Virus record (IMG/VR): IMGVR_UViG_3300035183_000203
Span: 1-28,985 of that record
Source of the DNA: a virus
DNA length: 28,985 nt
Direction: 5' to 3' (one strand)
Below, one piece after another: positions 6,985 to 28,985 of the stretch. The first letter of the stretch is position 1, and each line of letters begins with the position of its first letter. The notes under the pieces are model-generated. The model did no database searches. It was not told the origin of the DNA and saw only the letters and a list, made by a program, of their open reading frames with translations. Position numbers and translations under genes: made by a program.

Positions 6985-7012
6985 ATTATACCGATTTTCG
7001 TTTGATTGTCAA
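6985..7012 (-). promoter_or_regulatory. Sigma70-type promoter for ParB-methyltransferase/replication operon
   Basis: On the minus strand TTGACA (7012-7007) and TATAAT (6990-6985), both perfect consensus, are separated by 16 bp. Transcription would start near 6978, about 145 nt upstream of the methyltransferase ATG, giving the structured leader described at 6850-6946. Confidence 0.8.
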
Positions 7013-7030: not shown

Positions 7031-7031
7031 T

Positions 7032-7070
7032 GTTCGGGATAGTATGCTCAATTTGCATACTATCCCGAAC
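7032..7070 (-). terminator. Perfect 16-bp stem-loop, probable terminator
   Basis: GTTCGGGATAGTATGC (7032-7047) and its exact reverse complement (7055-7070) flank a 7-nt loop. It lies 5 bp beyond the stop codon of the gene at 7076-7306 and just upstream of the next promoter. The minus-strand continuation is A/T-rich but without a clean T run, so termination efficiency is uncertain; an operator role is the alternative. Confidence 0.6.
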
Positions 7071-7075
7071 GAATC

Positions 7076-7354: not shown

Positions 7355-7963
7355 TTATCGCGGCCTGACATGCTCCACGTCTTTGTAGTGGCGGGTTTCC
7401 CCGTCGGTGGTCGTGTAAGCCGAGCCGTCGGTGTAGTACACGCGGCACTTGATGGTGTAGCGTCCCGCTTTGCCCATGTCCTCAGATGTGACGTATTTCA
7501 TGAGGCCATTCGCAGATTCGATTTTCCATTTATTGACGGCAATTCGCGGATATTTGTCATTTGCGCCGAAAAACTTGATTGTGGTTTTGCCGTCCGGCTG
7601 TGGCAACACCTCCACAATATCGGCGTCAATCGTCTGATATTTAACATCCGGGCCTTTTCGAGATGGAGGCAATTCCACCGCAGATTCGGCCAGTTGTTTT
7701 GCGAGCTCTTTATTCCCCTCTTCCAGCACAATGGCAACGTCTTTTGTGGGCAGTGGGGCGGCGGCGGCGGGCGGAAGCGGTTTCTCGACGGTCATGTCGT
7801 ATTCCCCCATAGCCCAGACGATGCTATCCATGAGGCTTTTGATAGCATCTTTTGGCGTAATCGCGCGGGCAGTCACATTGATGGGTACGCCAGTCTTAGA
7901 ATAGATGGTGGCAAATGCTATTCCGCCCGCCTCTGGTAATTGGTAGTTTTCGTTTGTATTCAT
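7355..7963 (-). CDS. Hypothetical early protein (202 aa), possible ssDNA-binding role
   Basis: ATG 7963 (MNTNENYQLPEAGGIAFATI) has AAGGAGCC upstream and is taken over an upstream TTG at 7990. The N-terminal 60 residues include a short alpha/beta stretch (GVPINVTARAITPKDAIKSLMDSIVWAM), followed by a Pro/Ala linker. Residues about 105-202 are beta-rich with KYQTIDADIVEVLPQPDGKT, KFFGANDKYPRIAVNKWKIE and a terminal YKDVEHVRP. This resembles small beta-barrel nucleic-acid binders, but no OB-fold signature is certain. The gene directly downstream of a peptide with an SSB-like tail (8023-8133) makes a single-strand-binding function worth testing. Unproven. Confidence 0.75.
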   Translation of the reverse strand: MNTNENYQLPEAGGIAFATIYSKTGVPINVTARAITPKDAIKSLMDSIVWAMGEYDMTVEKPLPPAAAAPLPTKDVAIVLEEGNKELAKQLAESAVELPPSRKGPDVKYQTIDADIVEVLPQPDGKTTIKFFGANDKYPRIAVNKWKIESANGLMKYVTSEDMGKAGRYTIKCRVYYTDGSAYTTTDGETRHYKDVEHVRPR

Positions 7964-7974
7964 TTTGGCTCCTT

Positions 7975-7994
7975 GCCGATGTGAATGCATCGGC
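7975..7994 (-). promoter_or_regulatory. Small stem-loop in leader of the 202-aa gene
   Basis: GCCGATG (7975-7981) pairs with CATCGGC (7988-7994) over a 6-nt loop, just upstream of the ribosome binding site of the gene starting at 7963. It may affect translation or mRNA stability; the role is unknown. Confidence 0.35.
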
Positions 7995-8154: not shown

Positions 8155-8182
8155 ATTATACACAAATGTCAACGAATGTCAA
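8155..8182 (-). promoter_or_regulatory. Leftward early promoter, consensus sigma70
   Basis: On the minus strand TTGACA (8182-8177) and TATAAT (8160-8155) are separated by 16 bp. The sequence AATGTCAA occurs at 8165-8172 and 8175-8182, a direct repeat with a 10-bp period overlapping the -35 element, as expected for an operator. The promoter is back to back with the rightward one at 8196-8223. Confidence 0.85.
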
Positions 8183-8195
8183 GAGAAAATTACCC

Positions 8196-8223
8196 TTGAC
8201 AAAAATAAAAAAATCCATATAAT
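8196..8223 (+). promoter_or_regulatory. Rightward promoter of HTH gene and cassette array, leaderless
   Basis: TTGACA (8196-8201) and TATAAT (8218-8223), both perfect, have a 16-bp spacer. The expected transcription start is about 8230, one base before or at the ATG at 8231, so the mRNA would be leaderless or nearly so. No Shine-Dalgarno sequence is present before that ATG. Confidence 0.8.
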
Positions 8224-8230
8224 TCACAAT

Positions 8231-8419
8231 ATGGAAACAATAAAACTCACTAAACCAATTTATGAATACTCGGCCAATGAATGGCTTCGTATCTGGAGCG
8301 AAGCCCGCCGCGCTGAAATGCGCCGGCTTTATGCCAGCGGCAATCTCTCGCTGGCAAAAGTAGGCGAGAGGTTCGGAGTATCCCGCCAGAATGTGGCGCG
8401 AGTTTTGAAGGATAATTAA
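8231..8419 (+). CDS. Small HTH DNA-binding protein (62 aa), putative switch regulator
   Basis: Longer in-frame starts exist from 8114, but these would cover both promoters. ATG 8231 (METIKLTKPIYEYSANEWLR) coincides with the predicted transcription start and is chosen. The C-terminal half, EMRRLYASGNLSLAKVGERFGVSRQNVARVLKDN, is a clear helix-turn-helix like those of resolvase/Hin-type or sigma-like proteins (AKVGERFGVSRQNVARV). The gene faces away from the early operon across two back-to-back promoters, the arrangement of a phage genetic switch. Downstream on the same strand begins the cassette array, so it probably shares this transcript. At 62 aa it lacks a separate dimerisation domain. A repressor or activator role is inferred. 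Confidence 0.8.
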   Translation: METIKLTKPIYEYSANEWLRIWSEARRAEMRRLYASGNLSLAKVGERFGVSRQNVARVLKDN

Positions 8420-8449
8420 TTTTCTATTAATCAGTTCCGTATAAACATA

Positions 8450-8456
8450 GTTAGCC
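8450..8456 (+). other. Left recombination core of cassette array (attI-equivalent)
   Basis: GTTAGCC marks the 5' boundary of the first cassette, with the expected crossover between G8450 and T8451. It is matched by the R'' box GGCTAAC at 8737-8743 in the cassette's own attC. GTTAGCC differs from GTTRRRY at one position. No R'' box or hairpin lies upstream, so this is an attI-like single site or a secondary integration site, not an attC. Confidence 0.6.
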
Positions 8457-8487
8457 CGCACTTGGCAAATGTGCAGAAGAGGAAAAA

Positions 8488-8733
8488 ATGAAAGCAAAGA
8501 CAATATTTTTTTACATTTTTGAAAACGGAGAAACTTGTGCAATGGTTTCTTCGGCGGGGGACCCAGAAACCATGCACAGAGCTGCAATGCAACAGGCAAA
8601 AGTTCGCGGTACAAAAATTTCATGCGCTCATGTAATCGACGATGGAGTTACGATCGATTACAAAACGCAAAAATTACTTGCCAGGTTTGTTGATTTTGAT
8701 TTTTCTCATGGTGTCCCATTTCCGATTCGATGA
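8488..8733 (+). CDS. Cassette 1 protein, hypothetical (81 aa)
   Basis: ATG 8488 follows GAGG with six bases between. The product starts MKAKTIFFYIFENGETCAMV and continues with a helical middle (ETMHRAAMQQAKVRGTK) and a beta-rich end; it is soluble and of unknown family. The TGA at 8731-8733 lies immediately before the R'' box of attC1, the normal gene/attC arrangement of a cassette. It is about 70 nt downstream of the HTH gene and probably read from the same promoter. Confidence 0.75.
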   Translation: MKAKTIFFYIFENGETCAMVSSAGDPETMHRAAMQQAKVRGTKISCAHVIDDGVTIDYKTQKLLARFVDFDFSHGVPFPIR

Positions 8734-8736
8734 GCG

Positions 8737-8866
8737 GGCTAACATCGCGTGCAGCCGACTGGTGGGACTCGTCCCGACTTACAAGCATTTTTCTGGCTTC
8801 GGGCTTTTTCCTGCTCCCAAGCCGAATCCACGCCCGCTCACCAGCGGCTAACGCAAACCGTTGGGC
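8737..8866 (+). other. attC1 recombination site
   Basis: R'' GGCTAAC (8737-8743), L'' AGCCGACTGGTG (8752-8763), L' CACCAGCGGCT (8839-8849), R' GTTGGGC (8860-8866). L'' and L' pair with one unpaired A. Unpaired spacers ATCGCGTG and AACGCAAACC separate the arms, as in canonical attC. An outer GAGCGGGC/GCCCGCTC pair is also present (8732-8739, 8832-8839). Confidence 0.9.
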
Positions 8867-8892
8867 GGCAAGTCCAGAAAGGAATAAAAAAA

Positions 8893-9039
8893 ATGGAAAT
8901 ATTGGTGGTGGTTGCGTGTGCGTTAATTATTGGTAATATTCTATGGGAATCCAAAGACGACATTCCGCTTGGTTGTGGCGCGCTCATGGTTATTGGAGTA
9001 ATCGTTGGATGGGTGGTGCTATGGCGAATTTTTCCATAG
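8893..9039 (+). CDS. Cassette 2 small membrane protein (48 aa)
   Basis: MEILVVVACALIIGNILWES forms a first transmembrane helix. A short charged and Gly/Cys loop (KDDIPLGCG) follows, then a second helix (ALMVIGVIVGWVVLWRIFP) to the C-terminus. An AAAGGA motif precedes the ATG at 8893. The stop lies two bases before the R'' region of attC2. Two-helix hairpin proteins of this size are common in cassettes and in phages (exclusion, holin-like, toxins); which applies here is unknown. Confidence 0.7.
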   Translation: MEILVVVACALIIGNILWESKDDIPLGCGALMVIGVIVGWVVLWRIFP

Positions 9040-9041
9040 CC

Positions 9042-9150
9042 GCCCAACATCGTTTGCAGGCGGACGGCGGCAACGCTGTTCCAGTCTAGCAATCATCCCA
9101 ACAGCAGGCGAGCGCGTACGAGCCGCCGCCGCTGAAACCAACCGTTGGGC
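9042..9150 (+). other. attC2 recombination site
   Basis: R'' GCCCAAC (9042-9048) and R' GTTGGGC (9144-9150). L'' AGGCGGACGGCGGC pairs with L' GCCGCCGCCGCT with an unpaired A. The 5' end of cassette 2 (GTTGGGCGGC) is the exact complement of GCCGCCCAAC here. Confidence 0.9.
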
Positions 9151-9164
9151 GGCTTGGAGGAAAA

Positions 9165-9383
9165 ATGTGTAATCGTTTATATAGATATAAATGCGTAGTA
9201 TGTGGGCTTTCCTGCGAAGGTTGCGTCCACGATGGTTTTTATTATTCAAAAAAGGTTTGCGGTAAGTTACGCTGTTCAATAGAAGCACGCTGCCGAACAT
9301 CGCGTGCACTGGACGGGGCGAAGCGCACGGCTCAAAAAGGTTCTATTAGTGGCAAGCGTTCTGGTAGGTCGCCCCGCCAGTAA
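9165..9383 (+). CDS. Cassette 3 cysteine-rich peptide (72 aa)
   Basis: GGAGG lies five bases before ATG 9165. The N-terminal half is Cys-rich (MCNRLYRYKCVVCGLSCEGC, then KKVCGKLRC), suggesting one or two zinc sites of CxxC type. The reading frame continues through the whole attC3 and terminates at the TAA of its L'/spacer region, so the last 30 residues are encoded by the recombination site and are basic and low in hydrophobics. A shorter functional core is likely. Unknown function. Confidence 0.65.
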   Translation: MCNRLYRYKCVVCGLSCEGCVHDGFYYSKKVCGKLRCSIEARCRTSRALDGAKRTAQKGSISGKRSGRSPRQ

Positions 9384-9398
9384 CGCAAACCGTTGGGC
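9292..9398 (+). other. attC3 recombination site
   Basis: R'' GCCGAAC (9292-9298, one mismatch to consensus) and R' GTTGGGC (9392-9398). L'' ACTGGACGGGGCGA pairs with L' TCGCCCCGCCAGT over 13 bp with exactly one extrahelical A. This is the cleanest stem in the array. Confidence 0.92.
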
Positions 9399-9422
9399 GG
9401 AAGCCCTGCATAAGGAGTGATA

Positions 9423-9692
9423 ATGAAAAAAGAAAATGGTTCGTCAAGTGTTCATGTTTTATATCATAGCCCTCGCTGGCATATCTGCTGGAATTTGTTC
9501 GCTCACGGCTATCGTAAGTATGCCGTCAATTTCAAGCGTTACACCAGCCTCGGTATTGAGTATTGCTTTTGGGTGTCGTTTGGTAAGGGTAATCTGTCAT
9601 TCACATTCCGCCCAACACCGCTTGCACACCGACCAGAAACGGGCGCGGCGAAATCTGACAGCGAATCCAAGTCCGCCGTTTCTGGCGGGTGA
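9423..9692 (+). CDS. Cassette 4 hypothetical protein (89 aa)
   Basis: ATG 9423 follows AAGGAG at ideal spacing, which decides between this frame and an overlapping longer frame (9436-9912). The product reads MKKENGSSSVHVLYHSPRWH, with aromatic-rich segments IEYCFWVSFGKGNLSFTF, and the last quarter is encoded by attC4 with its TGA inside L'. Composition suggests a beta-rich soluble or peripheral membrane protein. No family is recognised. Confidence 0.6.
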   Translation: MKKENGSSSVHVLYHSPRWHICWNLFAHGYRKYAVNFKRYTSLGIEYCFWVSFGKGNLSFTFRPTPLAHRPETGAAKSDSESKSAVSGG

Positions 9693-9707
9693 AGCAAATC
9701 GTTGGGC
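9610..9707 (+). other. attC4 recombination site
   Basis: R'' GCCCAAC (9610-9616) and R' GTTGGGC (9701-9707). L'' CCGACCAGAAACGG pairs with L' CCGTTTCTGGCGG with one unpaired A. TTCCGCCCAAC is the exact 11-bp complement of the 5' end of cassette 4 (GTTGGGCGGAA, 9392-9402). Confidence 0.92.
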
Positions 9708-9729
9708 GGCAAGCCCGGAAAGGAACAAA

Positions 9730-9912
9730 ATGGATTGCAAAAAATGTGGAAGTCCCGTGTATCACCCATCATCTAGCAAACTATGTCCGCAGTGTGAAGG
9801 TGAGATGTTGGATAAATGGGTTGCAGAACAAGAAGCCGCCCAACAACACATGCAACCGACCGCCGCTGGCGGAGAGACGGACGGCGAAAATTCTGAAAGC
9901 GGCGGCGGCTAA
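9730..9912 (+). CDS. Cassette 5 zinc-ribbon peptide (60 aa)
   Basis: AAAGGAACAAA precedes ATG 9730. The protein opens with MDCKKCGSPVYHPSSSKLCP and QCEG, a classic four-cysteine zinc ribbon (CxxC...CxxC), then an acidic helix (EMLDKWVAEQEAAQQHM). The remaining part is low-complexity Gly/Glu sequence coded by attC5, ending at the TAA of GGCTAACGC. It is probably a small zinc-binding adaptor; the cellular role is unknown. Confidence 0.75.
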   Translation: MDCKKCGSPVYHPSSSKLCPQCEGEMLDKWVAEQEAAQQHMQPTAAGGETDGENSESGGG

Positions 9913-9927
9913 CGCAAGCCGTTAGAA
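9838..9927 (+). other. attC5 recombination site
   Basis: R'' GCCCAAC (9838-9844) and R' GTTAGAA (9921-9927, last base off consensus). L'' AACCGACCGCCGCT pairs with L' AGCGGCGGCGGCT with one extrahelical A. GCCGCCCAAC complements the 5' end of cassette 5. Confidence 0.9.
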
Positions 9928-9940
9928 AGGCTCTTGCAAA

Positions 9941-10144
9941 ATGAAAGATATTTTAGGTCTTGTTATTGTGACAATGGGAGCGTCTATCTTCGGGCGCGGC
10001 TTTGAAATGTTATCACCTGATTTACAAACAGAATTCGCCAAAGAAATGTACGAGAAAATGATTGCCTTTCTAACACAGCGTACAGCGGACGGGGCTAACG
10101 TGTCCGCCGAATCAGACAGTGTTGGCGGCACACCCCGCCGCTGA
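9941..10144 (+). CDS. Cassette 6 small membrane-anchored protein (67 aa)
   Basis: MKDILGLVIVTMGASIFGRG is a single N-terminal hydrophobic helix. A charged amphipathic helix (LQTEFAKEMYEKMIAFLTQR) follows, and then a tail coded by attC6 that ends with TGA in L'. GAAAGG is the ribosome binding site. The organisation (anchor plus helix) resembles many cassette and phage accessory peptides, and no specific function follows. Confidence 0.65.
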   Translation: MKDILGLVIVTMGASIFGRGFEMLSPDLQTEFAKEMYEKMIAFLTQRTADGANVSAESDSVGGTPRR

Positions 10145-10159
10145 CGCAAACCGTTAGAC
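10093..10159 (+). other. attC6 recombination site
   Basis: R'' GGCTAAC (10093-10099) and R' GTTAGAC (10153-10159, consensus). Shorter than its neighbours (67 bp). R'' does not fully complement the 5' end of cassette 6 (GTTAGAA), indicating drift. L' GCTGACGCAAACC matches the array consensus. Confidence 0.75.
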
Positions 10160-10209
10160 CTCTGTTTTGCAAACAGGCGTACCTTGTCAAATGAATATCG
10201 GGCGGCGGT

Positions 10210-10398
10210 GTGGTAGTACACACACAGGATACTGGAAAGACGACCCTAAGCAAGTCAGCCGGGATGAATAGTCCCCGCCAGTATGCCGCAGAACACATGC
10301 TAAGTAATGCGATGTTACTCCGCCCGAAAGACCCCTTACACACCGTTGCCAAGAGACGCAAGCCCACATGCTCCATGCTCGAAACAATAGTGCGGTGA
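10210..10398 (+). CDS. Doubtful cassette 7 ORF (62 aa, GTG start)
   Basis: Cassette 7 (10154-10496) has no ORF with a convincing ribosome binding site. The only reasonable frame begins at GTG 10210 or at the internal ATG 10264 (MNSPRQYAAEHMLSNAMLLR) and stops 10 bp before R'' of attC7. Its C-terminus is basic with Cys and His. A 26-codon frame starting at 10191 also exists. The cassette may carry no protein gene, or a non-coding RNA or promoter. Low confidence. Confidence 0.3.
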   Translation: MVVHTQDTGKTTLSKSAGMNSPRQYAAEHMLSNAMLLRPKDPLHTVAKRRKPTCSMLETIVR

Positions 10399-10410
10399 AA
10401 AGTGGGTGGG

Positions 10411-10502
10411 GTCTAACATAGCGTGCAGCGGTTGGTGGGCTGCGCCACTTCGCTTTCAAGTCGCGCCGTACCCGCCAATCCGCTGCACGCAAGCCGTTGG
10501 GC
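10411..10502 (+). other. attC7 recombination site
   Basis: R'' GTCTAAC (10411-10417) and R' GTTGGGC (10496-10502), both consensus. GGTCTAAC is the exact complement of the cassette 7 start GTTAGACC. L'' AGCGGTTGGTGGG pairs with L' CCCGCCAATCCGCT with one bulged base. Confidence 0.9.
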
Positions 10503-10516
10503 GGATAGGAGTAAAA

Positions 10517-10681
10517 ATGAATCTTTTATGTTCGGTGTTTGGGCATCTATGGGTGTCTCGATATTGGTGGATTGATAGCGCAACATGCGTTTTGAAAAAA
10601 GAATGTTTGCGTTGCAGTGAAGAACGTTTGTCTGAATATCCACCCAACATTGTTTTGCAGCAGACGGGCTTATATGAATAA
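10517..10681 (+). CDS. Cassette 8a small Cys/Trp-rich protein (54 aa)
   Basis: ATAGGAG precedes ATG 10517. The peptide MNLLCSVFGHLWVSRYWWID continues with CVLKKECLRCSEE, so a Cys-x2-Cys zinc site or disulphides are possible. The TAA overlaps the ATG of the following ORF, suggesting coupling. An R'' box (ACCCAAC, 10642-10648) that complements the start of this cassette lies inside the end of the gene, but its attC is not completed. See the fused-cassette finding. Confidence 0.65.
   Translation: MNLLCSVFGHLWVSRYWWIDSATCVLKKECLRCSEERLSEYPPNIVLQQTGLYE
10642..10665 (+). other. Truncated attC (R''/L'' half only)
   Basis: TATCCACCCAAC (ending at 10648) complements the start of cassette 8, GTTGGGCGGATA (10496-10507), at 11 of 12 positions with a G-T wobble. 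It is followed by a spacer and an L''-like GCAGACGGG. No matching L'/R' follows before the next gene, so the 3' half seems deleted. Confidence 0.6.
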
Positions 10682-10883
10682 ACTTGTAAAACCAAAAGCA
10701 ATCGGTCTGCAATGGGTGTGGGTTTGCGAAGAATGCGAAACACCCATCGTTGTTGCAAATAAGCGGTATTTCTGGGCTTGCAATTGTCACTTACGCCCAA
10801 CAAAGCGCGCACTGGACAAAAGCCAGCGGGCAAATCGCCACGCCACTAATACCCACCGTTGGACGACAAGCGCGAAGGAGTAA
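10674..10883 (+). CDS. Cassette 8b zinc-binding peptide (69 aa)
   Basis: ATG 10674 overlaps the stop of the previous ORF. The sequence MNKLVKPKAIGLQWVWVCEE has a CEEC pair, and later CNCH, consistent with a four-ligand zinc site. The frame goes on through attC8 and past its R' into the leader of the next cassette, stopping at TAA 10881-10883 after the AAGGAG of the following gene. The C-terminal third is basic and attC-derived. No good independent ribosome binding site; coupling is likely. Confidence 0.6.
   Translation: MNKLVKPKAIGLQWVWVCEECETPIVVANKRYFWACNCHLRPTKRALDKSQRANRHATNTHRWTTSAKE
10795..10864 (+). other. attC8 recombination site
   Basis: R'' GCCCAAC (10795-10801) and R' GTTGGAC (10858-10864), both consensus. 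The interior GCCAGCGGG...CGCCACTAAT resembles that of attC10, suggesting the two belong to a different attC lineage from sites 1-5. Confidence 0.85.
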
Positions 10884-10887
10884 TAAA

Positions 10888-11229
10888 ATGATTGATGAAG
10901 TTTTACGCAAATTGATTGATTTTCTGCAGGAGGCCAGTCCGTTTGTTTGGAGTACGTTGCTTAGGCAGGTTTATGTTGACGCTGCCGGAAATATCGCCTG
11001 GTCAGTTGGGCTTCTTGTTCTTGCCTTTGTTTTATATAAGGCCGGTAAGTACGGCAAGGAGCATGCCACTGATTACAACATGCTGGGAGAAATGGGTTTG
11101 ATTGCCTGGTTTTTCTGCGCGCTATTTGGAGTGGCTTCTTTTAGTTTGCTGGTTGATGCGATAAAATATTTCTCAAATCCAGAGTTTTATGCAATCCAAT
11201 ATATCCTGCGCCAAATAGGTGGCGGCTAA
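10888..11229 (+). CDS. Cassette 9 membrane protein (113 aa)
   Basis: AAGGAG lies seven bases before ATG 10888. An amphipathic N-terminus (MIDEVLRKLIDFLQEASPFV) precedes a transmembrane helix (IAWSVGLLVLAFVLYKAG), a charged loop (KYGKEHATDYNMLGEM) and a second helix (IAWFFCALFGVASFSLLVDA). The gene ends in Gly-Gly-Gly with the TAA of GGCTAACGCC, i.e. within its attC. It is the largest cassette membrane protein. Candidate functions such as superinfection exclusion or abortive infection are by analogy only. Confidence 0.75.
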   Translation: MIDEVLRKLIDFLQEASPFVWSTLLRQVYVDAAGNIAWSVGLLVLAFVLYKAGKYGKEHATDYNMLGEMGLIAWFFCALFGVASFSLLVDAIKYFSNPEFYAIQYILRQIGGG

Positions 11230-11245
11230 CGCCAGTTCGTTGGGA
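11194..11245 (+). other. attC9, degenerate
   Basis: R' region TTCGTTGGGAGG with core GTTGGGA (11239-11245) and the typical L' GGCTAACGCC are clear. R'' is weak (ATCCAAT at 11194-11200 is the best match). The GGGAGG of R' also serves as the ribosome binding site of the next gene. Confidence 0.55.
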
Positions 11246-11253
11246 GGCTTTTT

Positions 11254-11745
11254 ATGACATATAATGTTTCACAAATTAGAGAGGCCGTAAAAGTTTCTTT
11301 ATCATTCGCCCAGGTCATGCGCGAAATAGGCAAACGCGGAGGCGGCACACAACAGAGAATAAAACTATTTTGCCAACGTAATAATATTGATTACAGCCAC
11401 TTCACCGGCCAGGCACATTGTACTCCGCAACGCAAAGTTTCTTTTGAGGAAGGAAGCAAAAAAGTATCAACCAGCGTTTTGAAGAAACGTCTTTTTGCTT
11501 CTGGCGTTGAAAAAGTTTGTCAACAGTGCGGTTTGTCAGAGTGGCGTGGTTTGCCTGCTCCATTGGAGCTTCATCATAAAGACGGAAATAGAAACAACAA
11601 CCATCCATCCAATTTGGAAATATTATGTCCGAATTGTCACGCGCAAACTGAGTCGTATTGCAGACGCAAACGCTACCGCCGTCCAACACCGCCTGCGTTC
11701 AACGAAGCCAGCGGGGACACGCCACTAATGACGGCAAGCCATTAA
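11254..11745 (+). CDS. Cassette 10 HNH endonuclease (163 aa)
   Basis: The C-terminal half carries an HNH nuclease: a CQQC zinc knuckle near residue 90, LELHHKDGNRNNNHPSN (His107-His108, Asp110, Asn residues) and LEILCPNCHAQT with the second CxxC and a histidine. The N-terminal half contains a possible HTH (SLSFAQVMREIGKRGGG) found with many phage-associated HNH proteins. It would cut DNA; whether it acts as a mobile nuclease, packaging helper or defence enzyme is open. ATG 11254 uses GGGAGG from the attC core. The last residues are coded by attC10, and its TAA overlaps the stop of the opposing gene. Confidence 0.9.
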   Translation: MTYNVSQIREAVKVSLSFAQVMREIGKRGGGTQQRIKLFCQRNNIDYSHFTGQAHCTPQRKVSFEEGSKKVSTSVLKKRLFASGVEKVCQQCGLSEWRGLPAPLELHHKDGNRNNNHPSNLEILCPNCHAQTESYCRRKRYRRPTPPAFNEASGDTPLMTASH

Positions 11746-11747
11746 AT
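11681..11747 (+). other. attC10, right end of array
   Basis: R'' GTCCAAC (11681-11687) is consensus. The terminal core is ATTAAAT (11741-11747), departing from GTTRRRY only at the first base. Interior GCCAGCGGGGACACGCCACT is shared in style with attC8. The core coincides with the last codons of the phage gene on the other strand. Confidence 0.7.
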
Positions 11748-12272
11748 CTTTTCCAACCACGCGGCAGGCAAGTATGCCCACGGCCGCCAATACAAAGTCG
11801 GAAACGTGACACCCCCGCGCGGGATGTACGATTTTCCGTCCAGTGTCAACGCCCGCCAGACATAAAGCAGGTGGGGAGGCGGGTTGAACGGTAAATCAAA
11901 TGCCGCGTCCCAGCATTCGATTTTGGCAAAATTCCCCACAAATTCCAACACGTTTACCAGCGCGCCGCCGGATACCTCCGGCGTATGTTGTCGGTATATT
12001 CCTGTCGTCTCGTCATACGCCAGTACCATGTCGGTTTTATTGTCGTGAGATACCAGCCAGTTGAATTGTTCCTGATTATTCCACGACATGATGCGTTCTA
12101 TTTGCTGGGCAGATAATTCTATTCCATTCCCTTTCTCGAATTTCGGGTTTTCGAGAAGGGGTATGTTGTCGAATGTCCCATACGGCCTGCCAAGCCAGCC
12201 GATGTCCGGCCGTTTATCACCAGTCATGGCACGGTATAGATTCACGCGGCGGACGTTGGCAATCAGTTTCAC
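11742..12272 (-). CDS. Hypothetical protein (176 aa), last gene of late unit
   Basis: GTG 12272 overlaps the endolysin stop (GTGA). The protein is soluble and Trp-rich, starting MKLIANVRRVNLYRAMTGDK; later segments include AQQIERIMSWNNQEQFNWLV and ECWDAAFDLPFNPPPHLLYV. It has no signal peptide and no known domain. Position after the endolysin suggests a lysis or virion accessory role, without direct evidence. Its TAA (11744-11742) shares bases with the TAA of the HNH cassette on the plus strand, so the two transcription units converge exactly here. Confidence 0.8.
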   Translation of the reverse strand: MKLIANVRRVNLYRAMTGDKRPDIGWLGRPYGTFDNIPLLENPKFEKGNGIELSAQQIERIMSWNNQEQFNWLVSHDNKTDMVLAYDETTGIYRQHTPEVSGGALVNVLEFVGNFAKIECWDAAFDLPFNPPPHLLYVWRALTLDGKSYIPRGGVTFPTLYWRPWAYLPAAWLEKI

Positions 12273-22860: not shown

Positions 22861-25800
22861 TTATGGCAAAGTCGGTACAATCACCTGATCCACAAATTCC
22901 TGAAGGGTATTGGTTGGTTTTCCGTTAGCCTCCCAGATCGCTGCCAACTCATGCAGTGCGCCCGCGCCTAGCGGCTGGCCTGTCATTCTGTATAAATCCA
23001 ACTGCATTCGAAGCGTTGGCGTTGCGTCTTTCAAATAAAACTCAGCCGTATAAGTTGGCTGGCTGCCTTCATCGCCGCCGCGATAGTATGTCAAAAGACG
23101 CTTGTATTGTTCTGCATTCATGTCTGGCGGAACATCCATCTTACCCTGTAAGATATTCTCAGCAATTTTACCGTCAATGAACGGAGCCGCTTCGGGATGG
23201 CTTTGTATGTAACTGCGCCGCCACGCCCAGTAATCGGATAGTTCTGGATACATCTGTTTGAATTGATACTGCTTCTCTTTTGGCATAGCGTAGTACATGT
23301 TTTGAATTTCCATGATGTTCGGATACCTGCGGTCGCGCTCCTGATAATATGTATTCAACTGTTGCGATATTTTCGGCGGCATTCCTTCCAGGCGCGGCAT
23401 CATTGCTTGAGGTATTTCGGTTACGCCGCGCGTTGCCTCCGTTTGCGGAACCATCCCGCCCAGCATACGACTCCAAACCGCCAGCGTGTTCACGTCAATA
23501 CTTTCTGCGCTGCGGGTATTTTTATCCAAAAACGCTCGCTGGAATAAGTCGCCCATCTGCGCCCTGATAATTTTCTGGTTGCCTTTATCAAGTCCCATGT
23601 AACGATTCCAAATCTGTCCAACCAGGAAGGCGCGCAACATTTCTTCTGGAGACTTGCCTTTCATCAAATAACTTTCGTATTCCGGGTGGTCGTCAAAGAA
23701 TCGCTGCACTGCTTTTTTGTCGCCGTTATCGTATGCTTTCCAGGCTGCGTTCCACTTCTCTTTCAAGCCCCGATAGCGCAACTCTCCTTCCGGCAGTAAT
23801 TGCGCGCCAAACAAAGATTCCGGCACGGCCAACAACATTTCTTCAAGGCTTGCGCCATGTGTACCGGCGTACAATGCGGACATGCCGGGAACGCGCAGCA
23901 TTAATTCCTGCTTCACCCGCTCACGCGCCAATTCATATAACGGCCCCTGTTTTTCAATCATCGCCTTGTTTGCCATCTCCGGCGATACGGGCTTTCCGTC
24001 AATCTCTGTCCCATCAGCCACCATGTTAGCGAGTTGACGGTTGATGTAATAATCTCCGTATTCGCCAAATTCCGGCAGTCCCGCTTTGCTTCTTAGCCAC
24101 TCCTCCGGTTTTCCCAACAACCCGATCACATTGCCCAACGCCTCAAATGGCGAACCTTTGAGCGCGGCCTCGAATGCACGCGTGCTTTTCAGCATGGGCG
24201 TCTCTGATATTTTCTCTCCCTGTCCGGTTGCCAGATAATACGGCGTTGTCAGATAAAAGCCTATCCCAAACATCATATTCATAAATTCAGCAGGGCCAGT
24301 GATTTGTTCTGTGCGCCTCAGTTTCGCTTCAGCCAAAGCCTTCTCGTAAACCGGCCCCTGCCCGCTAAGAGCCTGTTGAATTTCATCCTGCGTATATGTG
24401 CCATCCTTCGCCCATTCCTGCAAAATACGCTCGGCTTCAATTAGTTGATTTCGTTTATCACTTGCCATCGTCTCGAATGGAGACAGAAAATTCGAGAATT
24501 GGAAAATCTGACGGACGGGGTCAACATAAACGTTATCTCCCATCCAGTCGGGCAGGAACGGCGCGGGCAGTTTGATTCTGCCGCGTAATCGTTCCGGCCA
24601 ATCGCGCTGATATTTATTCATCATCTGCTGGATTCTGGCGTAATGCGCGAACCATCCAATACGATCGGGCGCGTTCAGAAACCAGTTTTTCATCGTCTCA
24701 GTTCCCCAGAAACGATAGGGAAATACCGTATCCACCCATTCGCCAAATGGAGTCCGGTTGTTATAGTTCAGCATGGCCAGGTCGCGCTGCATTTCGGCAA
24801 AACGCGTGGTTATCAGTTTGCTGGTTGCCAGGTCGCCGCGCACTTGATTGAGATACCGCCGCAGCATGGCCTGCGTCTCAGCGTCCAGTCCGCTGATATT
24901 GAGCGTGCGCGTTACCCCCTCACCGGCCACCTTCTTCATCTCGTTGAGAAGCGGCCAAACGTAATTCGTCCAGCCTTCGTCCAGTACACGGCTTTCCGGC
25001 AGGAAGCCGCCGCTCAATTCATCGTATCCGTTTGGAGGCACACGCGTATCAGCGTTCTGGAAGAGTCGGTCAAATGAGTTTAGTTTCTCTTCCACCTGCC
25101 GCCTGAAATTTGCCTCTGCCTGTTTTGTCGCTTCTATTTCCGCATCTGCGCTTTCTGTACCAGTCGACTCGCGCGTTATCACTCTTTCTGCTTTAGCCTG
25201 CGCCTGTGCTTGCGCTGCCGATTGTTCCGCCAATCCATTCGCAATCTTCCCGCTTTTGGCGTTCTTCTCAGCCTCAGCAGCCACTTCGCCTATTGTGCGG
25301 TTGATGTACGAGCCGTATGTTTCATTGCCGACAACAGCATTGGCCACACTGTCCGGAATCTTATCAGCCAGCGCATATAGCGCGTCAGGATTTTTTTCTT
25401 TGACAGCTTTCTTAAACTTTTTTTCCCAGGCAGCCAAATCAAACCCGGCTTCCTCTGCAAGCGTTTTGATATTCATACGATTTTCCAGAACACTCCGGAC
25501 GAACTCCGGCGTTATGCGCGGGTCGCCCAATCCCTTCAAATCAGGTATTCCGCCGTATTCTTTCATTTTCAGCGCGCCAAGCAGCGCGTAGGTGTCTGCC
25601 GGATTATACGGCGCGTTGTCACGGAGATAACGCCCAGCTACGTCCCACACTCTCTGAACATGTTCCTGTCTCGCGGCCGCTTCCATTGCATTCCGCTGCT
25701 GCGCCGCTGCCAGCATTCCGTTTATGTCTTCCGTGCTGCCGCCATTTACGGCATCCCATACCGTCCAGACTCCAAGTCTTTTCAACTCCCTGAATTGTTC

Positions 25801-28800
25801 TATCATCAGAGGATAATCCTGCTGATAGAATTTTTCATTGGCGAGTCTTCGCTGCGCTCCATCCATGCCTTTTATACTGGCACGATGTTCGTTGATTTTC
25901 TCTATCATCTTCTCGCGGAACTGACGCCACTGGCTGAAGACTTCATCCGTAACCAATCCGACGCGCTCGCCATAAATATCGCCCATCAGTTTGGCGATAG
26001 ATTTCTGCATAGTTTCCATGTGCGCTTGCGCCTGCCGATGCGCCTGCTCGAATACTTTTTGCACGCGGTCGTTGCTGGCCTGCACATCATCCCAGAAAGC
26101 AGGGTCGTTCATTTTCCCCGCCCATTTGTCGTGCAGTTGTAGGCGCTCATCGAAGCGCGCCCGATATGCGTCTCCGTATGCCCGTTGATACTCACTCAGC
26201 GCGGCCATAAAATCCTGCGCCATCGGATGATTGACGCCAAGCCCATCAAAGAGGGCTTTGTAGTTTGCCAGTTGATATGAGTTCGTCCGATTCCAACTTG
26301 CCCGATTCTGTCTCTCATAGTCCATTATCAGAGTGTCACGCAACTCAGGCGGAGCCTCATATACCGTATCCCATAAGTCGCCATAACCCAGATAATGATT
26401 CAGCCAGCGGTCAAAATACCCGCCCTCGATTTCCTCCAGAATATTTACAATGCCAAGCCCGCCTTCGATTGTCACCTTATTCTTGACGTGTTCAATGCGC
26501 TTGGCAATGTCAGTAGCATTGCGAACGTCCATCATATCCTGCGCCCGCTGCACTACATCATTGAAAACCCGCATACGCTGCTCGGCAGTTTTGGCCGTCT
26601 TCAGCCGCTTATCCAGTTCGTCCAGTATTCCCAACTCCGAAAACGTGCGGATTGCCTCATCCGCATTCGTTCCCAGCCGCCGCGCCGCTTCCTCTAATAC
26701 CGCCCGTCCATGCCCAATCTGTTCCTGACGGTATACGGCGTTTTCGATTTCATTCATATTCAAGCCGCTCTCGATGAAATGGTAAAGCGTCTTCTCGTCA
26801 AAACCTGCGGCCGTCAGCCGCTGCCGCAACTCCGGGTCCACCAAACGGAAACCCTTGCCCGGTTTCCAAATCTCATTCATCATCCTTTTCATCGAGATAA
26901 CATACGCGTTCTGACTTTCCACACTCTCAACAAACTCGTTCAGTTTGCCGAATATGCCGATTTTATTCACGCCGCTAATAACATCGCTGACGGCTTTCCA
27001 TATTCCGCGCTGCTCGGACGCTTTTGCGATTACGTCCATTCCAGGAATCTCACCTTTGCCAACTGCCTCACCGGTAAAACCTACGCCTTCCCCATAGCGC
27101 GCCGGTTTGAAGCCAAAACGATCAAGCCATTCTGCCGCCGCTGCTGGGCTGACGTATCCGTAATTTCCGGCCGCCACCCGCCCCATGATATTGCCGATTT
27201 CATTCTGAATAAAGTTCCCAGGATTCAACCCCAACAATGCCAGACTTTGCGCCTTCTTCAAAAGAGGCGCGACTTTTCCAACCCAAAAATTATTATTCGG
27301 CTTTACGTCATAAAACTTAACCGCCCAATCCGCGAAGTGCTTACCCATATTCGCTATCGTCTGCGCCTTCCACATATCAAATGTGTAGGGCGCACCGTTT
27401 TCATGGAATACTTTTACAATGCTGGATAAATCATCCGGCGTAAACCGCCCAGCTTTTGCCGCTTCCAACAAGTCGGTAGCCGCGTTGCCAGTCATCTGGC
27501 CAGCCTTCTCGATAATGCGCTGATAATTCCGCTTCACATCTGTGGCGTCAGATAAATCCTTGATTACTCTTTCGGGCTTCTCGCCCAGCACTTCGGCCAG
27601 TTTATTTAGAATATTGATGTTTGGCTGCACCGCCTCCCAGCGCGCCACATCAATCCCCAGGTCGTAGTTTTTCATGGCCGGGAAGATAGTGTACCATTCA
27701 GGCGAGTTCAACATCCGTGCGCCAAACTCAGCGGCAACTCTATTATCCGTTCCCTGCAACTGCTTGAAGTGCGCGCTCAGTTCGTCCACGTTATCAAACA
27801 TGTTTAGATACGCGCCCAGATTTTCCACCGCCATATTCAAAGCGGTAATTGCCCGTCTTTTAGGCGTCAGCATGGTGAAAAATTCTCGGACGCGTTCTAT
27901 ACCTGATGTAGCAGGCTTTTCCAGTTTGGCAATTTTCCCTTCCTCGGTAATCCCACCCAGGAACTTCTCATAATCCGATAACTCATTAACTGGCGTTGCC
28001 TGAATTATGGCTTTTAATTTATCCTTGCCCTCGCTTATTTGATGAGAACCCTCAAACGCCTGCGCCACCCTTTGCGCCTGCTTTGCCTTAAGAGCATAGG
28101 CGTCTGCGCGCTCAAGGTCTCCCTCCGCCTTGAATTTCTCTGCCAGTTTCACATAGTGGTTGGATTCCAACTCTCCGAATTTCGATATGATTTTACTTCC
28201 CACTGCGCCGGTATAATTCAGCGGGTCGGCAATTGATTGCCCGAACATATCGCTCATTTGCCCAATCACACCAGCCTGAAAGTCAAGCGCAACCTGCCTG
28301 TAATTCTCTCCGTTTTTAATTCTCTGCCGCGCTTCGTTAATCCTCTGCTGAAAATTCTGTGTCAATTCCTCTGGCATGGACTGGCCAATTATTAATTCAT
28401 CCCCTTTATATCTGTCCGGATTCAACATCAGGCTCGTAAGCCGTTCGGCCACCCAGATAGGCGGGGAAAGTTTCAGAATATCAGTTGCTTCAACATTGCC
28501 TTTCAACAGACGGGGCAAATCTTCAGTTGCGGCCGCGTTTATTGCAGGCCCCAGCGTTTCAAATGTCACCGCGCCCGCGTTCCAACCCTCGGCTGAAAAT
28601 ACATCCTTTAATGAAACATTTGGGTCTTGTATTGCTCCAATGGCCTGAACACCAAGTCCAATTGTTTTCTCAACTTGTTCGGTCAAAAAGTTCAATAGCC
28701 CAAACGTGCGCCGCGCTACCGCAGACAAATCGCCAGGACGGTCAACTTTTCCGTTCTGAATAACCATAGGCTGGCCATAAGTGCCGCGTAATACATTTGT

Positions 28801-28985
28801 CCCCTTATATTTTTCAGGATCATAATATTGCCCCTGCTGCCAAAACTCTTTGGTAGGGTCATATCCAGAAGCGTTAGCCGCCCATCCAATTCCTGCGCCG
28901 ATTGCCGCTCCAACCGAGCCGCTTATCAGCCCGCCACCCGCCCCCATTAATCCGCCTTGAACCGCCCCCATTGTTGCCGGTGAAC
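22861..28985 (-). CDS. Giant virion/ejection-type protein (more than 2036 aa, 5' end outside window)
   Basis: The frame is open to the window edge. An ATG at 28971 exists, but codons before it are also open, so the protein may be longer. Near the visible N-terminus a Gly/Ala stretch (VQGGLMGAGGGLISGSVGAA) could insert into membranes. Long helical and coiled-coil parts follow (around LEEAARRLGTNADEAIRTFS and a Gln/Ala-rich AEQSAAQAQAQAKAER). A later segment has FGEWVDTVFPYRFWGTETMK and PFLPDWMGDNVYVDPVRQIF. The final 400 residues are helical with many aromatic residues. Size and position in the head module suggest an internal virion protein ejected with DNA (comparable to T7 gp16 or large polyvalent proteins). 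No enzymatic motif is recognised. Confidence 0.75.
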   Translation of the reverse strand, partial: SPATMGAVQGGLMGAGGGLISGSVGAAIGAGIGWAANASGYDPTKEFWQQGQYYDPEKYKGTNVLRGTYGQPMVIQNGKVDRPGDLSAVARRTFGLLNFLTEQVEKTIGLGVQAIGAIQDPNVSLKDVFSAEGWNAGAVTFETLGPAINAAATEDLPRLLKGNVEATDILKLSPPIWVAERLTSLMLNPDRYKGDELIIGQSMPEELTQNFQQRINEARQRIKNGENYRQVALDFQAGVIGQMSDMFGQSIADPLNYTGAVGSKIISKFGELESNHYVKLAEKFKAEGDLERADAYALKAKQAQRVAQAFEGSHQISEGKDKLKAIIQATPVNELSDYEKFLGGITEEGKIAKLEKPATSGIERVREFFTMLTPKRRAITALNMAVENLGAYLNMFDNVDELSAHFKQLQGTDNRVAAEFGARMLNSPEWYTIFPAMKNYDLGIDVARWEAVQPNINILNKLAEVLGEKPERVIKDLSDATDVKRNYQRIIEKAGQMTGNAATDLLEAAKAGRFTPDDLSSIVKVFHENGAPYTFDMWKAQTIANMGKHFADWAVKFYDVKPNNNFWVGKVAPLLKKAQSLALLGLNPGNFIQNEIGNIMGRVAAGNYGYVSPAAAAEWLDRFGFKPARYGEGVGFTGEAVGKGEIPGMDVIAKASEQRGIWKAVSDVISGVNKIGIFGKLNEFVESVESQNAYVISMKRMMNEIWKPGKGFRLVDPELRQRLTAAGFDEKTLYHFIESGLNMNEIENAVYRQEQIGHGRAVLEEAARRLGTNADEAIRTFSELGILDELDKRLKTAKTAEQRMRVFNDVVQRAQDMMDVRNATDIAKRIEHVKNKVTIEGGLGIVNILEEIEGGYFDRWLNHYLGYGDLWDTVYEAPPELRDTLIMDYERQNRASWNRTNSYQLANYKALFDGLGVNHPMAQDFMAALSEYQRAYGDAYRARFDERLQLHDKWAGKMNDPAFWDDVQASNDRVQKVFEQAHRQAQAHMETMQKSIAKLMGDIYGERVGLVTDEVFSQWRQFREKMIEKINEHRASIKGMDGAQRRLANEKFYQQDYPLMIEQFRELKRLGVWTVWDAVNGGSTEDINGMLAAAQQRNAMEAAARQEHVQRVWDVAGRYLRDNAPYNPADTYALLGALKMKEYGGIPDLKGLGDPRITPEFVRSVLENRMNIKTLAEEAGFDLAAWEKKFKKAVKEKNPDALYALADKIPDSVANAVVGNETYGSYINRTIGEVAAEAEKNAKSGKIANGLAEQSAAQAQAQAKAERVITRESTGTESADAEIEATKQAEANFRRQVEEKLNSFDRLFQNADTRVPPNGYDELSGGFLPESRVLDEGWTNYVWPLLNEMKKVAGEGVTRTLNISGLDAETQAMLRRYLNQVRGDLATSKLITTRFAEMQRDLAMLNYNNRTPFGEWVDTVFPYRFWGTETMKNWFLNAPDRIGWFAHYARIQQMMNKYQRDWPERLRGRIKLPAPFLPDWMGDNVYVDPVRQIFQFSNFLSPFETMASDKRNQLIEAERILQEWAKDGTYTQDEIQQALSGQGPVYEKALAEAKLRRTEQITGPAEFMNMMFGIGFYLTTPYYLATGQGEKISETPMLKSTRAFEAALKGSPFEALGNVIGLLGKPEEWLRSKAGLPEFGEYGDYYINRQLANMVADGTEIDGKPVSPEMANKAMIEKQGPLYELARERVKQELMLRVPGMSALYAGTHGASLEEMLLAVPESLFGAQLLPEGELRYRGLKEKWNAAWKAYDNGDKKAVQRFFDDHPEYESYLMKGKSPEEMLRAFLVGQIWNRYMGLDKGNQKIIRAQMGDLFQRAFLDKNTRSAESIDVNTLAVWSRMLGGMVPQTEATRGVTEIPQAMMPRLEGMPPKISQQLNTYYQERDRRYPNIMEIQNMYYAMPKEKQYQFKQMYPELSDYWAWRRSYIQSHPEAAPFIDGKIAENILQGKMDVPPDMNAEQYKRLLTYYRGGDEGSQPTYTAEFYLKDATPTLRMQLDLYRMTGQPLGAGALHELAAIWEANGKPTNTLQEFVDQVIVPTLP

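Follow-up and report, generated by a model that had tools for sequence, protein, structure and literature searches.

The window analyzed in this work, 28,985 bases long, is the linear IMG/VR virus record IMGVR_UViG_3300035183_000203 and contains an array of about ten gene cassettes (8450-11741, + strand) directly behind a small, promoter-driven HTH gene. It probably represents an Anaerolineae phage integron without integrase, in other words a CALIN equipped with an attI-like docking site, where the integron integrase (IntI) is likely provided by the host and a viral promoter takes the role of Pc. We propose that a perfect rightward promoter would drive a leaderless mRNA for the small HTH protein, that an integron integrase, most likely that of the host, would insert cassettes at the attI-like site behind the HTH stop codon, that the co-directional cassettes would be expressed by read-through from the viral promoter in place of Pc and that the HTH protein probably controls its own unit by autoregulation. 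The features concerned are compiled in Table 1.

Table 1. Features of the promoter, HTH gene and cassette array region (positions in the window)
Feature	Position	Strand	Basis or remark
Leftward promoter TTGACA-16-TATAAT, early operon	8155..8182	-	12/12 match
Rightward promoter TTGACA-16-TATAAT, proposed Pc equivalent	8196..8223	+	12/12 match
Inverted repeat TCCATAT-N8-ATATGGA	8214..8235	.	spans -10 box and start codon
HTH gene (62 aa), leaderless judging by position	8231..8419	+	Pfam HTH_7, AF2, Foldseek
attI-like site ATTAATCAGTTCCGTATAAACATA^GTTAGCC	8426..8456	+	attI model; cassette 1 joined at G8450
Cassette 1, 81-aa ORF 8488-8733	8450..8859	+	boundary from own-R'' matching
attC 1	8737..8866	+	covariation, covariance model
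attC 2	9042..9150	+	covariation, covariance model
attC 3	9292..9398	+	covariation, covariance model
attC 4	9610..9707	+	covariation, covariance model
attC 5	9838..9927	+	covariation, covariance model
attC 6	10068..10159	+	covariation, covariance model
attC 7, of cassette 10153-10495	10411..10502	+	covariation, covariance model
Orphan R'' box ACCCAAC, truncated attC, then fused cassette DNA	10642..10648	+	sequence
attC 8	10795..10864	+	covariation, covariance model
Last cassette gene, HNH endonuclease-like (phrog_10822)	11254..11745	+	profile match
Decayed last attC, end ATTAAAT	11681..11747	+	sequence
Convergent phage gene	11742..12272	-	stop codon abuts right end of array

The window encodes a GP7/HK97-like major capsid protein (phrog_212), a DnaB helicase, RusA and a ParB/methyltransferase protein. 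A terminase search (phrog_2) gave no match in the window, and neither a tyrosine nor a serine integrase was found within the 28,985 bp of this incomplete record. Close capsid relatives (60-69% identical) come from contigs that reach 39-44 kb in length, so that the window is probably a fragment of a ~40-kb genome of which roughly 10 kb is missing. The rightward unit of promoter, HTH gene and array is placed between leftward early genes and leftward late genes. Searches for relatives via the two genes that flank the array (7355-7990 and 11742-12272) returned none. Beside the capsid genes lies a 2036-aa ORF (22861-28971, - strand), which relatives match in two separate pieces. IMG/VR contigs may hold misassigned host DNA; a terminase match was obtained for 11 of the 31 contigs checked.

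The array is real. Each of its eight full attC sites has the R''-L''-L'-R' fold of an imperfect palindrome; ten pairs are altered on both sides, and the covariation score of 0.230 compares with 0.130 in shuffles (reached by none of 500). A covariance model that was built from these same eight sites recovers all of them (E 2.8e-21 to 3.4e-9) and also detects sites in the relatives G001, G003 and G004. Cassette starts match their own R'' better than in permuted pairings (64 of 81 versus 44, p=0.0002), and this matching fixes the left boundary of the array at G8450: the R'' flank of cassette 1, GAGCGGGCTAAC at 8737, agrees with GTTAGCCCGCAC at 8450 in 8/9 positions, while the start of the next cassette matches it at just 4/9. 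The first cassette had been placed 31 bp behind the HTH stop codon in the original prediction; the close spacing is confirmed, with 30 bp between the stop (8419) and G8450. Holding at least two attC sites, cassette starts complementary to their own R'' and, in this record, no integron integrase, the array qualifies as a CALIN. The cassette ORFs are mostly tiny and without assigned function. In cassette 7 (10153-10410) no convincing ORF was found, nor did this cassette yield an Rfam match, as was the case for the window altogether, or fold better than shuffles (z -0.42). The array may in part be frozen, since the core of the last attC is mutated and the attC at 10642 is truncated. Joining the array flanks, G8450 and TTAAAT, gives GTTAAAT, a perfect GTTRRRY core and the presumed empty site, which abuts the stop codon of the convergent gene.

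A common sequence, TGTACATTCYGSTYAAACMMTA^GTT, leads up to the first GTT of arrays in viral contigs at their left ends and opens the arrays of about 20 Anaerolineae-type phage records (counts here and below refer to records, some of which nearly duplicate each other). The full 25-nt form (TGTACATTC...) was detected in 12 stretches of IMG/VR, as against none of 298 Anaerolineae genomes, and therefore looks phage-specific. An attI model trained on 24 sites from other phages, with the window left out, ranks position 8450 first of ~58,000 window positions on both strands with one gap allowed (score 14.4; next 11.7). The window site needs a 1-nt gap to fit this model and is devoid of TGTACA; on similarity it would be a divergent version of the phage attI. 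With this putative attI at its start, the array has an element that characterizes complete integrons. The site had been overlooked in the original prediction, and the position of the array appears better explained by the presence of a docking site than by analogy with rexAB. A loose 15-nt attI matrix was dropped in favor of the longer model on account of ~295 chance matches per Mb. A fuzzy scan produced equally many matches in reversed controls (44 vs 41), and only few-change matches at an array start were kept from it. An empty attI was not found among the phage records examined; two seemingly identical modules (L262/L269) proved to overlap completely and thus furnished neither an empty nor a swapped site. 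No clear host attI was seen at host IntI loci. The contigs G076, G085 and L264/L269 have two attI sites in a single phage, with cassettes behind each.

It is conceivable that the array is a chance relict, a piece of a host array acquired by illegitimate or homologous recombination, with neither a dedicated docking site nor selected expression. The truncated attC at 10642, the mutated one at 11741 and the imperfect attI match of the window are in line with such an origin. We nevertheless regard it as unlikely, because the junction coincides exactly with a GTT core within an attI-like flank that is common to unrelated phages, the deduced empty site is a perfect GTTRRRY and arrays recur behind small genes.

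Two sigma-70-type promoters, both matching the consensus in 12/12 positions, lie back to back at 8155-8223, just as originally predicted. Perfect promoters number three in the window as against a mean of 0.005 in mono-shuffled windows; the third is located at 7012 (- strand) beside a strong hairpin (7031-7071). The leftward gene is not leaderless, its leader containing AAAGGAG (AAAGGAGATTGAAATG). The ATG of the HTH gene (8231), on the other hand, is situated 7 nt past the -10 box without a ribosome-binding site, which makes a leaderless mRNA the natural reading. The spacing from a 12/12 promoter and the missing ribosome-binding site agree with the earlier claim of a leaderless gene, the transcription start being a predicted one. 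The original prediction had compared the gene to lambda cI for its leaderless mRNA and for the genes behind it. The protein itself is not CI-like: it matches Pfam HTH_7 with 24.9 bits (cut-off 23.8), its AF2 model is a tri-helical HTH (pLDDT 91) and Foldseek assigns it to DeoR-DNA with a probability of 0.99, yet with an E value of 0.43. It is a small HTH_7/DeoR-like protein without homology to CI. Its kin in IMG/VR are distant and occur in unrelated contexts. Autoregulation of the unit by this protein is probable, and the inverted repeat across the promoter and start codon is a possible operator. The cassettes are promoterless ORFs on the + strand that follow immediately upon the promoter-driven gene without a convincing terminator in between, and the viral promoter could therefore serve as Pc. 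The same build recurs in other phages (G084, G057, G035, G076). Gene arrangement thus favors the suggestion that this promoter would replace Pc; co-transcription of HTH gene and cassettes would be its expected consequence.

In most phages with such an attI, the gene in front of the site is a small ORF of 50-90 aa that ends at most ~40 bp from the GTT and is often DNA-binding-like. When the protein of one family, A4, was used alone as query, a test unbiased by attC, the gene was immediately followed by attI and cassettes at 10 of 11 loci, representing eight distinct phages. Family A proteins are putatively DNA-binding. An RHH fold was considered for them and not adopted, as Foldseek gave no significant match and Pfam PSK_trans_fac (E 0.0098) stayed below the cut-off. 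Further family A genes deserve mention. Those before attI in L222 (G022) and L239 (G028) contain one in-frame stop and are either pseudogenes or a case of stop-codon reassignment, and a homologue at L271:919-1104 (87% identical) has a different C-terminus and no attI behind it.

Leaderless spacing, with 6-8 nt from the end of the -10 box to the ATG, is also present in at least four other phages, G057, G035, G076 and G084. In the first three, a leaderless small gene is followed by attI and array. In G084, a perfect leftward and a 10/12 rightward promoter stand back to back, followed by a leaderless HTH gene, attI and array. Looking for related phages with empty or other cassettes behind the same HTH gene had been suggested as a check; G084 has the same anatomy, but its HTH protein is only 26% identical to that of the window over 34 aa, homologues are distant in general and an empty site did not emerge. 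Upstream of its attI at 58587 (- strand; L116), G084 also has a family A gene that is truncated and joined to the attI. Arrays at the end of ordinary phage operons for replication or recombination (G001, G072) indicate that the leaderless promoter is one version of the arrangement and not the rule.

In five of about 17 modules (G076, G057, G048, G035 and L264), the TGTACA of attI recurs no more than 70 bp in front of the small gene, so that it occurs in both promoter region and attI; a rough binomial estimate (p 0.02) puts this co-occurrence at ~1.6e-5. As a more tentative extension, phage-specific attI and small DNA-binding gene may constitute a dedicated cassette-docking module without integrase, in which the small protein would bind attI as well as its own promoter and thereby control cassette expression. 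The protein would then perhaps also govern the access of the host integrase to attI, and the HTH gene of the window would be one version of such a module.

The 19-nt attC core was scanned over 84,980 species genomes and found mainly in Chloroflexota/Anaerolineae MAGs; the same core has 82 matching stretches in viral contigs. In the best matches, attC 1 of the window and host attC sites show 80-86% identity, and 26 of 298 Anaerolineae genomes match. Judged by attC type only, the host is probably an anaerolinean. Between window cassettes and host genomes, attC is the sole shared DNA among the matches listed. The otherwise unrelated phages G015 (L040) and G076 (L105) have one cassette of about 681 bp in common (95%). 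A GTT core borders this cassette at either end, and the two contigs, of 32 and 56 kb, share no other sequence.

The IntI profile TIGR02249 (cut-off 265 bits) exceeds its threshold in four of 81 viral records (G003, G020, G043, G063) versus 13 of 17 host genomes sharing the attC. It has no match in the window (G000), an incomplete record, and none over the cut-off in G001 and G004, which are 43.8 and 38.8 kb in size and carry arrays. From these proportions, a host-supplied IntI appears to be the simplest source and the best reading, with IntI-mediated capture as the presumed route of cassette entry. Still, intI could reside in the missing part of the window genome, which would then harbor an ordinary complete phage integron that borrows nothing from the host. 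The relative G003, whose major capsid protein is 66% identical to that of the window, provides a precedent, as it possesses a complete integron adjoining terminase genes (L028:11935-14751) with a full intI (394.6 bits) directly before the array, and G020, G043 and G063 are built likewise. This explanation appears improbable to us: in all four, the co-directional intI directly precedes the array, a place taken by the HTH gene in the window, and G001 and G004 carry arrays without intI.

In phage lambda, the mRNA of the regulator cI is leaderless and the accessory genes rexAB lie behind it. A similar lysogenic conversion unit, with a CI-like repressor that is on in lysogens and cassettes acting as exclusion or host-altering genes, is the least probable of the alternatives: divergent promoters, a leaderless-type regulator followed by accessory genes, the HNH nuclease in the last cassette and a serine recombinase in the possibly temperate relatives G003 and G004 speak for it, but no integrase was found in the window, the HTH_7 fold is not CI-like, the cassette ORFs are mostly tiny and unassigned and the arrays of G001 and G072 close replication or recombination operons. 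The window has in common with cI-rexAB a regulator mRNA predicted to be leaderless and accessory genes behind it. Unlike in lambda, these accessory genes are recombinable cassettes, and their expression in lysogens and a rexAB-like exclusion role are hypothetical.

CALINs have been described in virulent and temperate phages by Qi et al. (2023; PMC9892861), who also report recombination by IntI1 at five of the six phage attC sites that they tested. The array of the window resembles these CALINs in having attC sites without an integrase and cassettes in one direction. In that study, however, a single attI was noted at a CALIN start, in an inactive Shewanella prophage that also holds a complete integron (Qi et al., 2023), whereas a phage-type attI recurs here in front of many arrays and behind small, often DNA-binding-like genes. 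In the literature searched, there is no report of a phage-type attI that follows small regulators and is common to numerous phages without integrase. CALINs and functional attC sites of phages are known, and the phage-specific attI docking module would be new. The chromosomal integrons of Anaerolineae (Chloroflexota) have the same attC type as the window; they differ in carrying intI, and the TGTACATTC-type attI was found in none of the 298 host genomes. Back-to-back Pc and Pint promoters are known from chromosomal integrons (reviewed in PMC8946536). In the class 1/Vibrio platform, promoterless cassettes likewise follow an attI and lie behind a promoter, but in the window intI is absent and a small HTH regulator gene is present at the platform.

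If our interpretation is right, phages keep a standard socket apart from the host integron, into which cassettes can be loaded for immediate expression from a viral promoter. Phages would then be active vehicles of the cassette pool and not accidental carriers, with single cassettes swapped between unrelated phages, and their use of the host integron integrase for diversifying accessory genes would become testable. As a minor observation, the relative G004 encodes an 832-aa terminase large subunit ORF (L030:2565-5063) with an apparent intein-like insertion and an overlapping HNH-like ORF.
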